A stretch of 64,000 bases of DNA from Kineosporiaceae bacterium. GTDB taxonomy: Bacteria > Actinomycetota > Actinomycetes > Actinomycetales > Kineosporiaceae. Both the position numbers and the translations under genes were made by a program. Below, piece by piece: positions 6,077 through 15,312 of this stretch. Each line of letters opens with the position of its first letter. Position 1 is the stretch's first letter. The notes beneath the pieces were generated by a model, which saw only the letters and a program-made list of their open reading frames with translations, was not told the DNA's origin and did no database searches. Where the stretch lies: assembly GCA_016794595.1 (NCBI GenBank), contig JAEUJN010000029.1, forward strand, positions 1-64,000, read 5' to 3'.

Positions 6077-7477
6077 ATGAATCTCAAGGCACAGAGTCGT
6101 CGCCTTGCCGTTACGGCTGCGTTCGGTATGGCGTCGGTGCTCGCGCTCACCTCGTGTGCGGGGGCAGGTGGCGGTAGCAGCAGTGACGGTGGCGCCTCGG
6201 GTGCCTCCGGGGGTGGTGGGGGCGCTCAGTCGATCAACGTGTTGATGGTCGGCAACCCGCAGATGACCGACATCCAGAAGATCACGGCAGAGACGTTCAC
6301 CAAGGACACCGGGATCACGGTCAACTACACCGTGTTGCCCGAGAACGAGTTGCGCGACAAGGTGACCCAGGATGTCGCCAACCAGGGTGGCCAGTACGAC
6401 GTCGCCACCGTGGGGATGTATGAGATCCCGATCTGGGCGAAGAACGGCTGGCTGCACGAACTGGACTCCTATGCCAAGGCCGACGCCAACTACGACTACG
6501 CCGACGTCCTGCCCTCGATCGTCAAGGGCCTGTCCGGTGAGGACGGCAAGGCCTACGGGCTGCCGTTCTACGGCGAGTCCTCGTTCCTGATGTACCGCAA
6601 GGACATCTTCGCCGAGAAGGGCCTGACCATGCCGGAGCGGCCGACCTGGACCCAGGTCGCCGACTTCGCCGCGAAGCTTGACGGGGCCAAGCCCGGCATG
6701 AAGGGCATCTGTCTGCGCGGTCTGCCCGGGTGGGGTGAGGTCTTCGCGCCGTTGACCACGGTGGTCAACACGATGGGCGGGACCTGGTTCACCCAGGACT
6801 GGAAGGCGCAGGTGAACTCGCCGGAGTTCACCAAGGCGGTCAACTTCTACGTCGATCTGGTCAAGGCGCACGGCGAGCCCGGTGCGGGCCAGGCCGGGTT
6901 CACCGAGTGCCTGAACGCGATGAGCCAGGAGAAGGTCGCGATGTGGTACGACGCGACCTCGGCTGCTGGTTCGCTGGAGGACGCTGCAGTCTCCAAGGTT
7001 GCGGGCAAGGTCGGCTACGCCTACGCGCCGGTCGAGGCGACCAAGGCCTCCGGGTGGTTGTGGGCGTGGGCGTGGGCGATGCCCAAGACGACCAAGAAGG
7101 CGGACGCCGCGGCGAAGTTCATCCTGTGGTCGACGTCCAAGGACTACGAGAAGCTGGTGGGCGAGAAGCTGGGCTGGCCGCGGGTGCCGTCCGGCAAGCG
7201 GGCCTCGACCTATGCGATCCCGGAGTACAAGGCAGCGGCGGCAGCGTTCGGTGACATCACGCTGAAGTCGATCGAGGAGGTCGACCCGGCCAACCCGGGG
7301 GTGCAGCCTCGTCCGACGGTGGGCATCCAGTTCGTGACCATCCCGGAGTTCGCCGACCTGGGAACCAAGGTGTCCCAGGACATCTCGGCGGCCATCTCGG
7401 GGAGCGGCACGGTGGAGCAGGCCCTGGCCAACGGTCAGAAGCTGGCCGAAGAGGTCGCCAAGAAGTACCAGAAGTAG
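6077..7477 (+). CDS. Polyol (sorbitol/mannitol-type) ABC transporter substrate-binding lipoprotein
   Basis: A 466-residue extracellular solute-binding protein. The first 28 residues are a lipoprotein signal ending in the lipobox LTSC, followed by a Gly/Ser linker. The mature part resembles the SmoE/MtlE polyol-binding group, with stretches such as TVLPENELRDKVTQDVA and YDVATVGMYEIPIWAKNGW. ATG 6077 is preceded by GGAGG at 6068-6072. Two permease genes and a sorbitol-dehydrogenase-like gene follow, supporting polyol uptake. A strong hairpin directly after the stop probably raises its expression relative to the permeases. The exact sugar alcohol is inferred. Confidence 0.88.
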   Translation: MNLKAQSRRLAVTAAFGMASVLALTSCAGAGGGSSSDGGASGASGGGGGAQSINVLMVGNPQMTDIQKITAETFTKDTGITVNYTVLPENELRDKVTQDVANQGGQYDVATVGMYEIPIWAKNGWLHELDSYAKADANYDYADVLPSIVKGLSGEDGKAYGLPFYGESSFLMYRKDIFAEKGLTMPERPTWTQVADFAAKLDGAKPGMKGICLRGLPGWGEVFAPLTTVVNTMGGTWFTQDWKAQVNSPEFTKAVNFYVDLVKAHGEPGAGQAGFTECLNAMSQEKVAMWYDATSAAGSLEDAAVSKVAGKVGYAYAPVEATKASGWLWAWAWAMPKTTKKADAAAKFILWSTSKDYEKLVGEKLGWPRVPSGKRASTYAIPEYKAAAAAFGDITLKSIEEVDPANPGVQPRPTVGIQFVTIPEFADLGTKVSQDISAAISGSGTVEQALANGQKLAEEVAKKYQK

Positions 7478-7483
7478 TCGGTT

Positions 7484-7520
7484 CGGCCCGGCCGGGAGCC
7501 ATGAGCTCCCGGCCGGGCCG
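7484..7520 (+). terminator. Intra-operon hairpin (attenuator or mRNA stabiliser)
   Basis: Perfect 16-base G/C arms (7484-7499 and 7505-7520) enclose CATGA. The hairpin lies between the substrate-binding protein gene and the first permease gene. At this place such structures usually let some transcription through and protect the upstream mRNA, giving more binding protein than permease. Confidence 0.7.
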
Positions 7521-7569
7521 CCGGTCCTGGTTCTCGCAGTCGTGAGCACTGTCCTGAGGGGTGGTCTGC

Positions 7570-8565
7570 ATGACGGCTCTGGCCGACGGCGCGGTGGACA
7601 CCGAGGTTGCAGCGCTGGCTCATCGATCGACGGCGGCGCAGCGGATGCGCCGGCGGGCGCCGCTGCTGCCGGCGTTGATCTTCACGATCATCATCACCCA
7701 GTTGCCGTTCCTGGTCACGATCGGCATCTCGGTGCTGAACTGGAACGTGTTGCGCCCCGGTGACAACGCGTTCCTGCCGGGCGTGGAGTTGGGCAAGTAC
7801 GAGTCCTTCGCCGGGATCTCGAACTACGTGACGGTGTTCACCGACAACCGGCTGCGGCACGCGGTGATGAACACGATCGTGTTGACCGCGTCGGCGGTTC
7901 TGGTCTCGGTCGTGATCGGTCTGCTGTTGGCGGTGCTGCTGGACCGCCGCTTCCCGGGGAGGGGCCTGGCTCGCACCCTGCTGATCGCCCCGTTCCTGGT
8001 GATGCCGGTGGCAGCGGCCCTGTTGTGGAAGCACGCGCTCTACAACCCCGATTACGGGCTGTTCAACGGGGTGCTGAACTGGATCTGGCAACTGTTCGGG
8101 GCCGAACAGGGCCCGATCATCGAGTGGGTCACGAACATGCCCATGACCGCAGTGGTCGCCGCGCTGGTCTGGCAGTGGACCCCGTTCATGATGCTGATCC
8201 TGCTGGCCGGGTTGCAGGCCCAGCCGGGGGACATCATCGAGGCCGCCAAGGTGGACGGGGCGAGTGGGTGGCAGACCTTCCGGTTCCTGACCCTGCCGCA
8301 CCTGCGTCAGTACCTCGAGCTGTCGGTGCTGCTGGGGTCGATCTACCTGCTGCAGACCTTCGATGCGGTGTTCACCATCACCCAGGGCGGTCCGGGGACG
8401 GCGACCACGAACCTGCCGTACGAGATCTACCTGACCATGTTCCGCAAGTACGAGTACGGCGAGGCCGCCGCGGCCGGGGTGGTCGTGGTGATCGGGACGA
8501 TCATCGTGGCCACGTTCGCGTTGCGGACCATCTCCTCGCTGTTCCGTGAGGAGGTCGGCCGATGA
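7570..8565 (+). CDS. Polyol ABC transporter permease, first subunit
   Basis: A 331-residue MalF-type inner-membrane permease with about six helices. The ATPase-coupling EAA loop is visible as EAAKVDGASGWQTFRFLTLP near residue 225. ATG 7570 is chosen because GAGGGG at 7556-7561 is well spaced; GTG 7561 lies inside that ribosome site. Its stop overlaps the next permease start. It forms the translocation channel with the next gene product and needs an ATPase that is not encoded here. Confidence 0.9.
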   Translation: MTALADGAVDTEVAALAHRSTAAQRMRRRAPLLPALIFTIIITQLPFLVTIGISVLNWNVLRPGDNAFLPGVELGKYESFAGISNYVTVFTDNRLRHAVMNTIVLTASAVLVSVVIGLLLAVLLDRRFPGRGLARTLLIAPFLVMPVAAALLWKHALYNPDYGLFNGVLNWIWQLFGAEQGPIIEWVTNMPMTAVVAALVWQWTPFMMLILLAGLQAQPGDIIEAAKVDGASGWQTFRFLTLPHLRQYLELSVLLGSIYLLQTFDAVFTITQGGPGTATTNLPYEIYLTMFRKYEYGEAAAAGVVVVIGTIIVATFALRTISSLFREEVGR

Positions 8566-9497
8566 ACGCCCCCCCCACCGGCAGTCTCGCCCGTCACGGC
8601 GGGCCGGGCGGCGCGCCACCGTCAGCGGCGGCCGCCCGGGGCCTGATGCGCCGGCTGCGCCGCGCGAAGGAGCCCGAGCAGGGACTGGCCCCCCGAGGCG
8701 GCCCGCTGTGGGCCACCCTGGCCTGGGGGCTGACCCTGATGTTCTTCGCCCCGGTGGCCTGGATGGTGCTGACCTCGCTGCACACCGAGGCCGACGCCGC
8801 GACCAACCCGCCCTCCCCGCTGGCCTCGCTGACCCTGAACGGCTACCGGGAACTGTTCCGCCGTGGGGTGGAGCCTTACCTGATCAACTCGGCGATGGCC
8901 AGCCTGGTCTCCACCGCCCTGGTGCTGGCCCTGGCCATCCCCGCCGCCTACGCCCTGTCCATCAAGCCGGTCGAGAAATGGACCGACGTGATGTTCTTCT
9001 TCCTGTCCACCAAGTTCCTGCCCGCGATCGCGGCCCTGCTGCCGGTCTACCTGATCGTGAAGAAGATCGGCCTGCTGGACAACATCTGGGCGTTGATCAT
9101 CCTCTACACCGCGATGAACCTGCCGATCGCGATCTGGATGATGCGCTCGTTCCTGGCCGAGGTCCCCCGCGAGATCCTCGAGGCTGCCGAGGTCGACGGC
9201 GCCGGCCTGCTGCGGGTCCTGACCCTGATCGTCTGGCCGATCTCCATGCCGGGGGTCGCCGCCACCGCCCTGATCTGCTTCATCTTCTCCTGGAACGAGT
9301 TCATGCTCGCGGTCAACCTCACCGGGGTCCGCGCCGGCACCGCCCCCGTCTTCCTGGTCGGCTTCATCACCAGTGAGGGCCTCTTCCTGGCTCAACTCTG
9401 CGCCGCGGCCACCCTGCTGTCCCTGCCCGTCCTGCTCGCCGGTTGGGCAGCACAGGACAAACTCGTCCGCGGACTCTCCCTCGGCGCCGTCAAATAG
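8562..9497 (+). CDS. Polyol ABC transporter permease, second subunit
   Basis: A 311-residue MalG-type permease beginning in an ATGA overlap with the first permease. A basic, Gly/Ala/Pro-rich N-terminus of about 45 residues precedes six membrane segments. The EAA loop reads EAAEVDGAGLLRVLTLIVWP. It completes the channel of the polyol importer. No ATP-binding subunit follows; actinobacteria often use a shared MsiK-type ATPase encoded elsewhere. Confidence 0.9.
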   Translation: MNAPPTGSLARHGGPGGAPPSAAAARGLMRRLRRAKEPEQGLAPRGGPLWATLAWGLTLMFFAPVAWMVLTSLHTEADAATNPPSPLASLTLNGYRELFRRGVEPYLINSAMASLVSTALVLALAIPAAYALSIKPVEKWTDVMFFFLSTKFLPAIAALLPVYLIVKKIGLLDNIWALIILYTAMNLPIAIWMMRSFLAEVPREILEAAEVDGAGLLRVLTLIVWPISMPGVAATALICFIFSWNEFMLAVNLTGVRAGTAPVFLVGFITSEGLFLAQLCAAATLLSLPVLLAGWAAQDKLVRGLSLGAVK

Positions 9498-10682: not shown

Positions 10683-13600
10683 GTGAGACAGCGCCTGTGG
10701 GGTGGATACGTACTGACCGCGTCGGTCGTCGCGTCCGCGTACTACCTGGTGCCCACGACCAACCTGAGCCACCTGCTGCTCTACAACGGCATCGGCCTGT
10801 CCGCGGTGATCGCCATCCTGGTCGGGATCCGGCGCAACCGGCCGGCCGACCGGCGTCCCTGGTTGTTGATCGCCGCCGGACAGGCGTCCTTCCTGATCGC
10901 GGACATCTCGTACTACACACTCGAGTCGATCAAGGACGAGGCACCCTTCCCGTCGATCGCCGACCTCTTCTACCTGGGCATGTACCCGCTGGTCATCATG
11001 GGGTTGATGCGCCTGGTGGCGCAGACCTCACCCGGGCGGGACTGGGCCAGCCTGGTGGATGCCGCGATCATCGCCGTGGCCACCTTCGCGGCCTTCGGCG
11101 TGCTGGTGATGGACCGCTACCTGACCGATCCGAACCTGACCCTGGCCGGGCGCGTGATCTCCGTCTGCTACCCGGTGATGGACGTCGCCCTGATCGCGGT
11201 CGCGGCCCGCCTGATCGGGTTGGTGCACCTGAGACGTCCGGCGTTCGGACTGCTGCTGACCGGTCTGTGCAGCCTGCTGGTGGCCGACCTGATCTACGGG
11301 ATCCTGAACTCGGCCGGGGTGTTCGAGACCGGCGGCGTGGCCGACATCTTCTGGCTCGGCTTCTACATCCTGCTGGCGGCGGCAGCGCTGCACCCGGACA
11401 TGGCCGAGCCGCCACAGGAACGCAACCACGGCCTGAGCATGACCACCTCGGGCATCGCCGTCCTGACCCTGACCACCTTGATGGTGCCGGCCATCGACCT
11501 GCTCTGGGGGCAGCCGGTCGACAAGCTGCTGACCACCATCTGCTCCAGCCTGCTGTTCGTCCTGGTGATCACCCGCCTGCTCACCCTGGTCGGGGTGATC
11601 CGCCGCAACGAGCAGCAGGCGCGCCACGACGCCATGCACGACGCGCTCACCGGGCTCGGCAACCGGGTGCTGTTCGCCCAGCGGGTCAACGACTTCGGGC
11701 GCTCTCGTGCCCAGGGAATCCTCGCCGTGCTGTTCGTCGACCTGGATGACTTCAAGACGGTCAACGACAGCCTCGGCCACGAACTCGGCGACCAGTTGCT
11801 GGTCGAGGTCGGTCAGCGGTTGCGGGCCAGCGTGCGCGAACAGGACCTGGTCGCGAGGCTGAGCGGCGACGAGTTCGCGATCCTGGTCGAGAGTGCGGTC
11901 GACCGGCAGGATGCCGTCGCGGCGGCCCGCCGCGTGCAGGAGGCGCTGTCCGGTCAGGTCGCACTCGGCGATCGCCGGGTGAGCATCTCGGCCAGCATCG
12001 GGATCACCGTCGAGGAGGTCGAGGACTTCCAGGGTTCCGACGAGTTGCTGCGGGCCGCGGACGCCGCGATGTACCACGCCAAGGCGAGCGGCAAGGGACG
12101 GTTCGAGTTCTTCGCCCCCGAGATGCGGCACGAGGCCGTCGAGCGCCTGGAGCTCAAGACCGACCTGCAGGTGGCTCTCGCCCGGGGCGAGTTCGAGGTC
12201 TACTACCAGCCCATCGTGCGGCTCAGCGACCGGCGGATCGTCTCGGTCGAGGCCCTGCTGCGCTGGCACCACCCGACCCGTGGCCTGATCACCCCGGTCA
12301 AGTTCATCCCGCTGGCCGAGCAGACCGGGCTGGTGACCTCGATCGGGGCCTGGATCCTGCAACAGGCCTGCCATCAGGTGGCCCGCTGGCAGCGGCTCTA
12401 CCCCGGGTCGGCACCCAAGCGGGTCAGCGTGAACCTGTCCGTGATGCAGCTGCACGACCCGGCCCTGGTCGACACGGTCGCCGATGCCCTGGCCCAGTCG
12501 GGCCTCGAGCCCTCGGCACTGACCCTCGAGATCACCGAGAGCATGCTGCTGGCCAAGACCCAGCAGACCACCCGGACGCTGGAGGCGCTCAAGGCCCTCC
12601 AGGTCAAGATCGCGATCGACGACTTCGGTACCGGCTACTCCGCCCTGAGCTACCTGCGGCACTTCCCGGTCGACGTGATCAAGATCGACCGGTCCTTCGT
12701 GCAGGAGCTGGCCGAGTCGGCCACCTCGCTCTCCCTGGTGGCAGCGGTGGTCGACCTGGCCAGGCGGCTCGAGATCGACACCGTGGCCGAGGGGATCGAG
12801 GACGAGGCCCAGCTGTCGGAGCTGCTGCAGATCGGCTGCTCCAGCGGGCAGGGCTACCTGTTCTCCATCCCGCTGCCCGGACGACGAGCCGAGGCTCTGT
12901 TCGCTCCCTCTCGGGGCAGCAACCGGGCCACCCCGGCCAGCACCGCCCCGCTGGAGACCGTGATGGTTGCCGGCGTCCACGACATCGACGGCATCGCCTC
13001 GGATCTCGAGCTGTTGCACGCCGATCTGGGCAAGCCGCTGATGTCGACCTGGACCTGGCTGCGCCCGTGGACGGCGGTGCACAGCGACTGGGATCCGTTC
13101 GCCGTGATCGTGCGCGAGCGCAATGGGCTGCGGATCGAGTCGGCCGCGCTGCTGGCGCAGAAGGTCGAGGACGGCGTCCGGCAGGTGATCGCCGTCGGCC
13201 GGGGGCCGCTGCAGTGCACCCGCCTGGCCGCCCGCTCCGACCGGGGTGCCCGGCTGCTGGCCCGGGGGATCATCGAGGCCCTGCCGGACGATCTGCCCTG
13301 GGTGCTGGACCTCCCCGAGCTGCCCGAGGCCGACCGGGTGGCGCGCATCCTGGCCCAGCAGCTGCCCGGCGCCGAGATCAGCCAGCTGCTGCCGATCCCG
13401 CGGGTCGACTTCGGCCAGTACCAGGGTGGCGACAACGTGCTCAGCACCAACATGCGGCGCCAGCTGCGCAAGGCGAGCAACCGGCTGGCCACCGACCAGC
13501 GTGAGGTGGTCGTCGACTTCACCCGGGACGACGGCGAGATTCAGCGACTTCTGCCGGAGATCGAACGTGTGCACGTGGATCGCGATCACAGCTCGGGCAG

Positions 13601-13994
13601 GACCAGTGACCTGGACGACGCCGACAGCCTCCAGCTGTGGCGGCGCCTGATCCAGGCCTGCGCGGCGGACGGCCGGATCGAGGTGGCCACGATGACCATC
13701 GACGGCGCCCTGGCGGCCTACGTGATCGCCCTACCCGACGGGCGCAGCTACCGCGTCTTCGACGGGCACTTCGACAATGCGTTCTCGCGGTACTCACCCG
13801 GACGGCTGCTGGAGTCGACCGTCCTCGACCGCGCGCTGGGCGATTCGCGGTACACCGAACTGGACTGGGGCTCGGGGGTGGCGAGTGAGAAGTTGCTCAC
13901 CTTCAACACGCTCGAGGCCCGCACCCGCCTGCAGGCGCGCAGCGCCCCGGCGGTGACCCGCCCAAAGGGCGATTCCGCCGCCGCTCTGGCCTGA
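10683..13994 (+). CDS. Membrane GGDEF-EAL c-di-GMP enzyme fused to an acyltransferase-like domain
   Basis: A 1103-residue protein in three parts. Residues 1-300 hold about eight to nine hydrophobic helices, probably a membrane sensor. Residues 315-475 are a GGDEF domain with active-site SGDEF (about 394-398) and an RxxD inhibitory site (REQD) five residues before it. Residues 490-740 are an EAL domain with EALLRW, IDDFGTGYSAL, KIDRSF and AEGIED all intact, so both synthesis and breakdown of c-di-GMP look possible. Residues 765-1095 match the GNAT-like Acetyltransf_6 (CelD/BcsL, FemAB-like) pattern: NMRRQLRKASNRL, a Leu-rich LWRRLIQACAADGRIEVA stretch, YRVFDGHFDNAFSRYSPG and ELDWGSGVASEK. The start is GTG 10683; the ribosome site is weak. 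The gene appears to be a single-gene unit after a terminator. Confidence 0.87.
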   Translation: MRQRLWGGYVLTASVVASAYYLVPTTNLSHLLLYNGIGLSAVIAILVGIRRNRPADRRPWLLIAAGQASFLIADISYYTLESIKDEAPFPSIADLFYLGMYPLVIMGLMRLVAQTSPGRDWASLVDAAIIAVATFAAFGVLVMDRYLTDPNLTLAGRVISVCYPVMDVALIAVAARLIGLVHLRRPAFGLLLTGLCSLLVADLIYGILNSAGVFETGGVADIFWLGFYILLAAAALHPDMAEPPQERNHGLSMTTSGIAVLTLTTLMVPAIDLLWGQPVDKLLTTICSSLLFVLVITRLLTLVGVIRRNEQQARHDAMHDALTGLGNRVLFAQRVNDFGRSRAQGILAVLFVDLDDFKTVNDSLGHELGDQLLVEVGQRLRASVREQDLVARLSGDEFAILVESAVDRQDAVAAARRVQEALSGQVALGDRRVSISASIGITVEEVEDFQGSDELLRAADAAMYHAKASGKGRFEFFAPEMRHEAVERLELKTDLQVALARGEFEVYYQPIVRLSDRRIVSVEALLRWHHPTRGLITPVKFIPLAEQTGLVTSIGAWILQQACHQVARWQRLYPGSAPKRVSVNLSVMQLHDPALVDTVADALAQSGLEPSALTLEITESMLLAKTQQTTRTLEALKALQVKIAIDDFGTGYSALSYLRHFPVDVIKIDRSFVQELAESATSLSLVAAVVDLARRLEIDTVAEGIEDEAQLSELLQIGCSSGQGYLFSIPLPGRRAEALFAPSRGSNRATPASTAPLETVMVAGVHDIDGIASDLELLHADLGKPLMSTWTWLRPWTAVHSDWDPFAVIVRERNGLRIESAALLAQKVEDGVRQVIAVGRGPLQCTRLAARSDRGARLLARGIIEALPDDLPWVLDLPELPEADRVARILAQQLPGAEISQLLPIPRVDFGQYQGGDNVLSTNMRRQLRKASNRLATDQREVVVDFTRDDGEIQRLLPEIERVHVDRDHSSGRTSDLDDADSLQLWRRLIQACAADGRIEVATMTIDGALAAYVIALPDGRSYRVFDGHFDNAFSRYSPGRLLESTVLDRALGDSRYTELDWGSGVASEKLLTFNTLEARTRLQARSAPAVTRPKGDSAAALA

Positions 13995-14283
13995 GAGGCC
14001 CCCTCCGCCCACACACGGGCCGACCACAGGGTGTGATCGCCACGTCGTCGGCACTGCCATCGGGCCGTGTCAGGGTCGCGCCCTCGGCCTGCGCGAACAC
14101 GCCGAAGCGGTTGGTAGTCACACCGTCACGGTGAGATGATCGCTAACTTGGTGTGAGCAAGTATGACGGACTGGTGATCCCCGCACGGCACGCCCGGCGG
14201 GTGGCCTACCGTAGGGTCGGACAGCGCCGATCCCGGTGGCCGAAGCGAACCGCTGGCGAGGGTGCGCAGCCGAAGGAGGCGTG
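13995..14283 (+). promoter_or_regulatory. Intergenic region with a -10 element
   Basis: This 289-base gap has no coding signal I trust. TAGGGT at 14212-14217 fits an actinobacterial -10 for the next gene, leaving a leader of about 60 bases. Small inverted repeats occur at 14121-14133 (CACCGTCACGGTG) and 14147-14161 (CTTG...CAAG). No riboswitch or tRNA was seen. Confidence 0.35.
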
Positions 14284-15312
14284 ATGTCCTGGACTGTGGC
14301 CGGGTCGTCTGCCGACCCCGGGATCCCCGGTCAGGGGTATCCGCTGGGTTATGGTCCCGGGCCCGACCTGCCGCCGCCCCCGCCACCCCCGGCCTATCCG
14401 CCGCCACCGGATCCCTACGCCCCGGCCCCGGTTCAGCCCGGGATGGGCTCCTGGGCACAGCCGCCCGCCGACTCGTGGTTCGACGCGCCGACACCCCCGT
14501 CGAGTCGGCCCGAGGAGGGTGCCGCACCGCAGCCGGCGGTGGGCTGGCAGGACACCCTGCGGGTCGAGCGTGAGGAACCGCATCCCGGCCCCCGGGATGC
14601 CCATGGCCGGTTGGTCGTGCTGGATCTGTCCGCGCACGGTCAGCTGCCGATGCCGGGCCAGGCGCCGGTGCAGGTCCTGGATCAGGCCGAGCCGGCGCTG
14701 TCCCGCCGTTCTCGATGGTCGGATGGCCTGATCGACCTGACCGGCCAGGCGCCGGTGGATCGTCGCCGGCGCGGCGGACGGCGGACGGCCCTCGTCGTGG
14801 CCTGCGTCGCCGCCTCGATCGGGGTCGGTGGTGCCGTCGTCGTCGCCACGCTCAACCAGGCCGGTCCGCAGCGCGTCGAGCTGGGCTCGGGGGACGAGCC
14901 CTCCGTGATCGAGAACGGCGCCCCGGAGAGCCCGCCGAGCGTCGGTTCCAGCTCTCCGGCCGGGATCTCGGTGATCGGGCGCAACGAGGTGACGGTGCCG
15001 GTGGCGCCGGTCCCGACGACCGGCCCGCGCCGGTCCACCAGCACCGCGCCGGGATCGACCAAGACCTCGACCACAGCGAGCACGAGCAAGGCGGTCACGC
15101 CGACCAGGTCGGTGACCCCCACCCGCTCGACCACGCCCCCGGCGACCACCGCGACGTCCACGTCGCCCCCGACGTCGACCACCACGACAACCAGCTCGTC
15201 ATCGCCACCGCCGCCCACCAGTTCGTCACCGCCACCGCCGCCACCGTCCACGCCCGTGGCCGAGCCCTCACCCAAGACGGTCCCCGCCGCTCAGGACGCC
15301 CAGGCTCCCTGA
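14284..15312 (+). CDS. Pro-rich single-pass membrane protein, function unknown
   Basis: A 342-residue protein I do not recognise. The N-terminal 60 residues are rich in Pro, Gly and Tyr, including a run of seven Pro. A single membrane helix (about residues 175-200, TALVVACVAASIGVGGAVVV) follows a basic RRRRGGRR stretch, and the C-terminal 140 residues are low-complexity Ser/Thr/Pro, ending in Pro-rich blocks. The predicted topology is a cytoplasmic N-terminus with an extracellular, cell-wall-spanning tail. ATG 14284 follows GGAGG at 14275-14279. Pro-rich cytoplasmic tails of this type often scaffold division or envelope proteins in actinobacteria, but nothing here proves it. Confidence 0.7.
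   Translation: MSWTVAGSSADPGIPGQGYPLGYGPGPDLPPPPPPPAYPPPPDPYAPAPVQPGMGSWAQPPADSWFDAPTPPSSRPEEGAAPQPAVGWQDTLRVEREEPHPGPRDAHGRLVVLDLSAHGQLPMPGQAPVQVLDQAEPALSRRSRWSDGLIDLTGQAPVDRRRRGGRRTALVVACVAASIGVGGAVVVATLNQAGPQRVELGSGDEPSVIENGAPESPPSVGSSSPAGISVIGRNEVTVPVAPVPTTGPRRSTSTAPGSTKTSTTASTSKAVTPTRSVTPTRSTTPPATTATSTSPPTSTTTTTSSSSPPPPTSSSPPPPPPSTPVAEPSPKTVPAAQDAQAP

Follow-up and report, generated by a model that had tools for sequence, protein, structure and literature searches.

Control of an acyltransferase by the second messenger cyclic di-GMP (c-di-GMP) is already known. By its published description, HfsK (CC3689) of Caulobacter crescentus is a soluble FemX-like GNAT protein that binds c-di-GMP with a dissociation constant of 724 nM and is controlled by it; the proposal is that it acts at the membrane, where tethering is needed for its activity according to its authors, and leaves the membrane at high c-di-GMP, and it is thought to modify the holdfast polysaccharide (PMC5362036). 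This role is not universal, as a deletion of hfsK in Hirschia baltica was reported to have no biofilm phenotype (PMC8449245). In PixB of Myxococcus xanthus, PilZ receptors are described as joined to an acetyltransferase domain (PMC8316039). Here, we analysed a stretch of 64,000 nucleotides from a Kineosporiaceae bacterium (contig JAEUJN010000029.1 of assembly GCA_016794595.1, positions 1 to 64,000; hereafter the window), which carries at 10683-13994 on the + strand a gene encoding a membrane domain, a GGDEF domain, an EAL domain and a FemX-like acyltransferase domain in one chain. New in this protein is the presence of the c-di-GMP turnover enzymes and the acyltransferase in a single polypeptide, backed by a conserved gene pair in relatives. 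An earlier note, made from the sequence alone, knew of no described case. For the architecture itself this stands: among the matches listed from open-licence PubMed Central (PMC) papers, judged by titles and the beginnings of abstracts, we found no description of a GGDEF-EAL protein joined to a FemX-like or Acetyltransf_6 domain. It does not stand for a c-di-GMP-controlled acyltransferase as such, since HfsK and PixB are known.

The fused gene is a single uninterrupted reading frame from a GTG start at 10683 to the stop at 13994 and encodes 1103 amino acids; the open frame and the Pfam matches confirm the order of domains that the earlier note had seen (Table 1), and the GGDEF and EAL domains are intact as it claimed. 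All catalytic motifs that are generally expected of an EAL domain are present (EALLR, NLS, EITE, DDFGTGYS, KIDRSF, AEGIE and QG). The GGDEF domain also lies over the NCBIfam cut-off of TIGR00254 and has a usable active-site motif in its SGDEF variant, a variant with reported cyclase activity in ECA3270 and the bifunctional MbaA, as far as their publications describe it (PMC3974145, PMC8967002). Searched with the whole protein, NCBIfam returned 28 families; the 25 matches listed are all GGDEF or EAL models, and 24 of them fall far short of their cut-offs, the exception being TIGR00254, the general GGDEF model, which exceeds its own. Residues 1-310 gave no Pfam match. For this membrane domain, AlphaFold2 predicted ten long helices from 28 aligned membrane domains (predicted local distance difference test, pLDDT, 84.1), and the matches of a fold search were limited to Z ≤11.1 (7-helix receptors, rhodopsins and a designed fold), which possibly reflects mere helical-bundle likeness. 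We therefore claim no sensor type and treat the domain as a putative sensor.

The C-terminal part is predicted to form a complete FemX-like double-GNAT transferase domain. Its sequence places it in PF13480 (Acetyltransf_6), with 69.1 bits against the curated Pfam cut-off of 22, and the domain extends beyond this match; it is not filed as a member of FemAB (PF02388), for which neither the full protein nor the C-terminal part gave a match at E ≤1. Against NCBIfam, the C-terminal part matched one exception model, far under its cut-off (E 0.012). A sequence search of the PDB with the domain alone returned nothing, and a profile of the domain aligned with 12 relatives (alignment A2) returned three matches only, the best with E 0.13; the fold was assigned from structure prediction. 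The model of residues 759-1103 (345 residues), computed from the same alignment, reached a pLDDT of 87.8 and a predicted template modelling score (pTM) of 0.83. Its top solved fold is FemX of Weissella (Foldseek E 2.8e-14; VIA-align Z 21.8, root-mean-square deviation 3.3 over 292 residues), in an alignment that spans model residues 2-332 and places both predicted GNAT-like halves in the FemX arrangement. The next matches by Z are FemX (21.0) and FemA (19.8) of S. aureus, the aminoacyl-tRNA-dependent synthases Sbb17/Sba18 (about 19) and MprF (about 17), followed by a protein of unknown function (2hqy, 16.8) and tandem GNATs (about 12 to 15.5). The GNAT-type fold expected for this part was thus found.

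Is the joining of these two kinds of enzyme a peculiarity of one genome? To answer this question, we searched overlapping sets of genomes with the acyltransferase domain, as a single protein or as a profile. Within the family, the domain occurs in 1 of 13 genomes, the window's own; matches were found in 17 of 396 genomes of the order, 18 of 394 of the class and 12 of 396 of the phylum, mostly weak, as well as in small neighbouring orders (1/3, 2/8, 4/13 and 1/5 genomes). The named genomes with the domain are Kineococcus siccus, K. indalonis, Kineococcus sp. TRM81007 and actinobacterial metagenome-assembled genomes; scanning named genomes with the single protein gave no relatives, and the profile search gave 7 loci among 24 candidate stretches. 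Plasmids and PADLOC yielded no match. We called a relative close if it matched the window's domain with E <1e-30 in the order set or the profile with >360 bits in the class set, limits that were picked after viewing the match lists. Records met twice (L045, L046, L048, L088-L091) were counted once. Close relatives occur in 19 genomes other than the window's, 17 of them with upstream DNA; the other two, L024 and L028, are Kineococcus contig ends.

In all 17 loci with upstream DNA (L022, L023, L025, L026, L027, L029, L030, L031, L042, L043, L044, L047, L092-L096), a GGDEF-EAL gene immediately precedes the acyltransferase gene, both being read from the same strand. In 16 of these coupled pairs, the two genes overlap by 4 bases from start to stop; in L096, a gap of 3 bases separates them. 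All 15 complete coupled partners have intact GGDEF and EAL motifs; the contigs of L044 and L047 hold only the end of the EAL gene. RxxD occurs at the position found in the fused protein in at most one of the 15 (L093) in the same alignment. The pairs span nine families, all other than that of the window (codes f5, f15, f97, f102, f108, f112, f114, f115 and f117), and most of their other neighbours differ from locus to locus. None of the 17 is fused. The survey thus found the full architecture in one genome and separate adjoining genes in every close relative with upstream DNA, and the coupling of c-di-GMP turnover to an acyltransferase proposed in the earlier note gains the support of these overlapping or abutting pairs.

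Six clear matches below the closeness limits (G884 with 183 bits, G1063, G468, G172, G074 and G059) have no GGDEF-EAL gene in the upstream DNA examined and all lie outside the coupled clade by tree, and the upstream DNA examined for the remote relatives L032, L033, L034, L062, L097 and L098 also holds none. The larger regions taken around the weak matches L019, L020 and L021 (L035-L037) gave no tblastn hit to the domain, and neither did L099 and L101. As a control, none of 20 paralogous membrane GGDEF-EAL loci, picked by similarity to the fused protein, holds the domain (tblastn 1e-3, 29 queries). Matches to the GGDEF-EAL part number 14 to 107 per genome in eight genomes, with 39 in the window's genome, and how one c-di-GMP enzyme among dozens addresses one target is an open question. 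As a separate observation, in three loci of family f68 of the phylum (L063, L064 and L065) weak acyltransferase relatives lie end to end with a GGDEF gene on the opposite strand, possibly a third association of the two.

We then compared the histories of the two halves. When 11 remote relatives were included for comparison, a branch of the acyltransferase tree (100/98) set all 17 coupled proteins apart from the rest, with the fused acyltransferase domain placed as sister to them (100/97). L066 and L067 entered none of the trees, and only the last 470 residues of the long remote frames L032, L069 and L098 were taken for this one. The GGDEF-EAL tree comprised 35 membrane proteins, namely the fused protein, the 15 complete coupled partners and 19 paralogs (from genomes G000, G001, G009, G016, G086, G125, G797 and G819). 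Here, the coupled partners form one clade (100/100), and the fused GGDEF-EAL half stands apart from it among other paralogs, including L132 from its own genome. Forcing the fused protein into the coupled clade costs 119.8 log units (approximately unbiased test, AU, p 2.9e-46; 741 columns), and 74.9 log units for the GGDEF-EAL part alone (p 1.0e-5); because the paralogs had been picked by similarity to the fused protein and the clade under test was chosen once a quick tree was at hand, these p values are not those of a blind test. L144, which entered the FastTree trees in a wrong frame (one TAG in its genome row), was dropped from both constraint tests. Mean identity of the fused acyltransferase domain is 33% to the coupled ones (15 used) and 24% to the remote relatives; that of the fused GGDEF-EAL protein is 31% to coupled partners and paralogs alike, so raw identity fails to show the lineage split of the tree. 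Across the coupled pairs, divergence of one partner is matched by divergence of the other (Mantel r 0.94, 15 pairs, 0 of 5000 permutations). Judged by these trees, the acyltransferase branch has joined c-di-GMP enzymes twice, or has changed its partner. Two GGDEF-EAL lineages attached to it mean that the association was repeated, unlike a single inherited neighbourhood.

Table 1. Features of the fused gene, with positions in the window
Feature	Positions	Strand	Basis
Fused gene: membrane domain, GGDEF, EAL, FemX-like acyltransferase	10683..13994	+	open frame, Pfam
N-terminal membrane domain, residues 1-310, about 10 predicted helices	10683..11612	+	AlphaFold2 model, hydropathy
GGDEF domain, residues 317-472	11631..12098	+	PF00990, 1.6e-39
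RxxD (REQD), putative inhibitory site, residues 385-388	11835..11846	+	motif alignment
SGDEF active-site motif, residues 394-398	11862..11876	+	motif alignment
EAL domain, residues 494-729, catalytic motifs complete	12162..12869	+	PF00563, 1.6e-78; motifs
EAL-acyltransferase linker	12870..12956	+	codon signal weak in segments starting 12876-12906
FemX-like double-GNAT acyltransferase domain (predicted), residues 759-1090	12957..13952	+	model, fold match, homology to separate genes
In-frame GTGATG at domain border, possible old start or chance	12960..12965	+	sequence; TGA 12961 in another frame
PF13480 (Acetyltransf_6) match, residues 923-1067	13449..13883	+	5.8e-19
LRKxxNR signature (LRKASNR in the fused protein), residues 928-934	13464..13484	+	alignment
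RYSPGRLLE segment, residues 1036-1044	13788..13814	+	alignment
K1070, probable counterpart of FemX Lys305	13890..13892	+	column is K in 11/11 remote relatives

The fused domain and its 17 coupled relatives share a signature of their own. The five named residues of LRKxxNR as well as D968, R1036, R1041 and E1044 are invariant in all 18 sequences; among the 11 remote relatives, the same residues occur in 2 (L928), 4 (R929), 1 (K930), 2 (N933), 8 (R934), 3 (D968), 3 (R1036), 2 (R1041) and none (E1044). A different pattern appears at the lysine preceding the C-terminal strand, which is present in the fused protein (K1070) and in all 11 remote relatives. Matched by motif and approximate position, K1070 is probably the counterpart of Lys305, described as the catalytic lysine of FemX (PMC12945691). 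In the 17 coupled proteins, this column holds T in 12, S in 2, and A, R and K in one each (the K in L043), so that in all of them but L043 the FemX-type lysine is replaced while the remaining domain is conserved. With this lysine absent from 16 of 17, the coupled proteins cannot safely be assumed to be ordinary acyltransferases; the alignment fits a view of the fused protein as the more canonical of the two kinds.

Could the fusion itself be an error? We scored codon usage, trained on five other genes of the window, in 23 overlapping 45-base segments across the junction (starts 12741-13071). The fused frame scored best in 22 of them. The exception starts at 12876, where no frame looks coding (-10.1 for the fused frame, -7.3 and -10.1 for the others); the highest of these three scores belongs to the frame running into the TGA at 12961, which does poorly in both flanking segments. 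The segments from 12891 and 12906 are negative in all frames, with the fused frame best, and in the segment from 12921, of which 36 of 45 bases lie upstream of the domain border, the fused frame reaches +7.5 versus -15.6 and -7.6. The window contains no Ns, and its source genome (4.95 Mb, 123 contigs) is 99.4% complete. Judged by codon scores and the absence of Ns, there is no clear sign of a frameshift error at the junction, and the assembly or sequencing error by which the earlier note would be refuted did not come to light, although an error in the short linker keeps a small probability.

The GTGATG at the domain border resembles the overlaps of the coupled pairs and hinted at an origin of the fusion from such a pair by a change of frame. 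We rejected this origin because the GGDEF-EAL half belongs to another lineage by tree, because the frame using the TGA has poor codon use outside one segment, and because the 12 coupled proteins of alignment A2 begin 8-27 residues ahead of the point where the fused domain starts to align.

Based on these observations, we propose that the fused protein is a membrane-anchored, one-piece c-di-GMP signalling enzyme with an acyltransferase output of its own, working in a manner similar to HfsK, and we place the probability of this reading at about one half. The membrane domain would sense some cue, the GGDEF and EAL domains would set the level of c-di-GMP, probably locally, and the substrate of the FemX-like acyltransferase, reached at the membrane's cytoplasmic face, would be a precursor of the cell envelope or of an exopolysaccharide, or another membrane-linked amine. 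Acyltransferase activity would follow the state of the GGDEF-EAL part, either via bound c-di-GMP or via contact. We infer the enzyme activities in this scheme, along with acyl donor and acceptor and the existence and direction of control. As relatives keep the two parts as separate genes placed end to end, these parts very probably work together; with tether, synthase and hydrolase built into one protein, the simplest reading would be a private c-di-GMP switch on a membrane acyltransferase. Several findings weigh against it: the fusion was found in one genome only, no c-di-GMP-binding motif was recognised in the acyltransferase domain, and the loss of the FemX-type lysine in 16 of 17 coupled proteins may mean that catalysis has changed or ended there. 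Moreover, the ten Pfam-tested neighbours of the fused gene in the window include no gene for cellulose or another polysaccharide, and none was recognised beside the coupled pairs in gene lists of which most genes were without a Pfam test.

The replaced lysine would suit a reversed flow of information, in which the FemX-like domain binds a metabolite (acyl-CoA, an aminoacyl-tRNA or a nucleotide-sugar) and reports it to the GGDEF-EAL part, so that an active enzyme is not required: the turnover motifs stay intact in the 15 complete partners of these proteins, and the gene is placed for translation together with its partner, as for a subunit. However, the fused protein retains K1070, the domain is otherwise highly conserved (28 invariant alignment columns over 13 sequences), and the N-terminal membrane domain is already available as a sensor; we hold this reversal to be rather unlikely. 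Unlikely, too, is that fusion or overlap merely fixes the location and amount of the acyltransferase with no signalling between the parts, although FemX and MprF, both enzymes working at the membrane, are among the best solved folds and membrane tethering matters for HfsK by its authors' account (PMC5362036). A plain membrane anchor would not require a GGDEF-EAL protein with intact motifs, yet the partner is of this kind in 17 of 17 pairs, with the motifs intact in all complete ones, and comes from two lineages counting the fusion.

An artefact that joined two neighbouring or unrelated genes by an assembly or sequencing error would account for a fusion seen in a single genome, whose family shows the domain in 1 of 13 genomes searched, and for the short linker stretch in which codon signal is missing and the frame of the TGA at 12961 is least bad. 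We consider it very improbable: the fused frame reads as coding before and after the linker and as far as the domain border, no N interrupts it, and a random misjoin would rarely hit a membrane GGDEF-EAL gene, the very kind of partner used by the relatives. The coupled pairs would stand even if the fusion did not.

Returning to the proposed one-piece switch, we tentatively extend it to the whole branch, a reading that we consider somewhat less likely than not. This FemX-like branch, with remote kin in exopolysaccharide clusters, might have become tied, as a dedicated partner, to membrane c-di-GMP enzymes across many actinomycetes, two GGDEF-EAL lineages being involved, and in the window's genome synthase, hydrolase and output might have merged such that a private c-di-GMP signal directly controls membrane acylation. 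With synthase, hydrolase and a candidate output enzyme united in one protein, local signalling becomes directly testable. The protein would also offer a lead on the effect of c-di-GMP on envelope chemistry in Kineococcus and its kin, with 17 natural gene pairs for comparison.

The genes around the fused gene do not point to a polymer. Upstream of it lie a sugar-binding regulator, an ATP-binding cassette sugar transporter and a zinc dehydrogenase; downstream lie a proline/threonine-rich open reading frame, a major facilitator superfamily protein and an amidase. The open reading frame (14236-15312, +) has no Pfam match and combines a proline-rich N-terminus, one hydrophobic segment and a Thr/Ser/Pro-rich C-terminus. 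Two Wzy_C proteins are encoded elsewhere in the window's genome. Remote relatives of the domain lie in exopolysaccharide clusters at three of four loci tested with Pfam (L062, L032 and L033): all three have Wzy-type ligases or polymerases and glycosyltransferases, L062 and L033 have Wzx-type flippases and polysaccharide deacetylases, and L032 and L033 have sugar-phosphate transferases. At the fourth, L097, the single tested neighbour is not of exopolysaccharide type. The polymer output suggested in the earlier note thus receives indirect support from these remote relatives and none from the ten neighbours in the window. Its specific assignment to BcsL/CelD is not supported, given these same neighbours and FemX as the nearest solved fold.

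In L062, two adjoining FemX-like/Acetyltransf_6 genes (6602-8838, -) lie by a polysaccharide deacetylase gene, reminiscent of HfsK/HfsH. Directly upstream of the coupled pair, on the same strand, is an EamA-type transporter gene in Kineococcus (L023 and L025 by Pfam; L026, L027, L029, L030 and L031 by sequence resemblance) and in L094, a locus of another family (Pfam); this transporter, without counterpart in the window, is a possible third partner of the pair. Flagellar rod genes lie some kilobases further away in L023, L026 and L031 (by Pfam in L023). A second GGDEF-EAL gene follows directly behind the pair in L094 (7838-10105, +). In L025, a membrane GGDEF protein is encoded one gene beyond the pair on the other strand (11356-12858, -), and its membrane domain is closer to that of the fused protein than the coupled partner's is (E 1e-26 vs 5e-8).

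How does the fused protein compare with known systems? Like other membrane GGDEF-EAL proteins of actinomycetes, it has membrane helices, GGDEF and EAL; unlike these paralogs, it has an acyltransferase domain, which tblastn did not find at the 20 paralog loci. The CelD/BcsL acyltransferases of cellulose typically lie in cellulose operons, a placement that the fused gene does not have among its ten neighbours in the window. With the aminoacyl-tRNA-dependent transferases of the FemX/FemABX type it shares the predicted double-GNAT fold across the whole domain, and its K1070 stands in a column that, as far as the alignment shows, probably matches the catalytic lysine; it differs from FemX by an identity of 14%, the lack of a PF02388 match and the fusion to GGDEF-EAL. 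The lysyl-phosphatidylglycerol synthase MprF likewise carries a polytopic membrane domain and a C-terminal double-GNAT on one chain, although no match to it was found at the sequence level in the PDB searches, and to our knowledge it has neither GGDEF nor EAL.

In summary, the closest parallels remain the two c-di-GMP-linked acyltransferases, compared here by their published descriptions. As in PixB, a c-di-GMP module and an acetyltransferase domain share one chain; unlike the fused protein, PixB has two PilZ receptor domains, no turnover enzymes and an acetyltransferase domain of the GNAT family (PMC8316039). As in HfsK, a FemX-like GNAT is tied to c-di-GMP, with action at the membrane in its authors' model (PMC5362036), and the hfsK gene, too, lies outside the main polysaccharide locus (PMC5362036, PMC8449245). 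HfsK, however, is a free protein that binds c-di-GMP itself, whereas here the turnover domains form part of the same polypeptide or are encoded by an overlapping gene.

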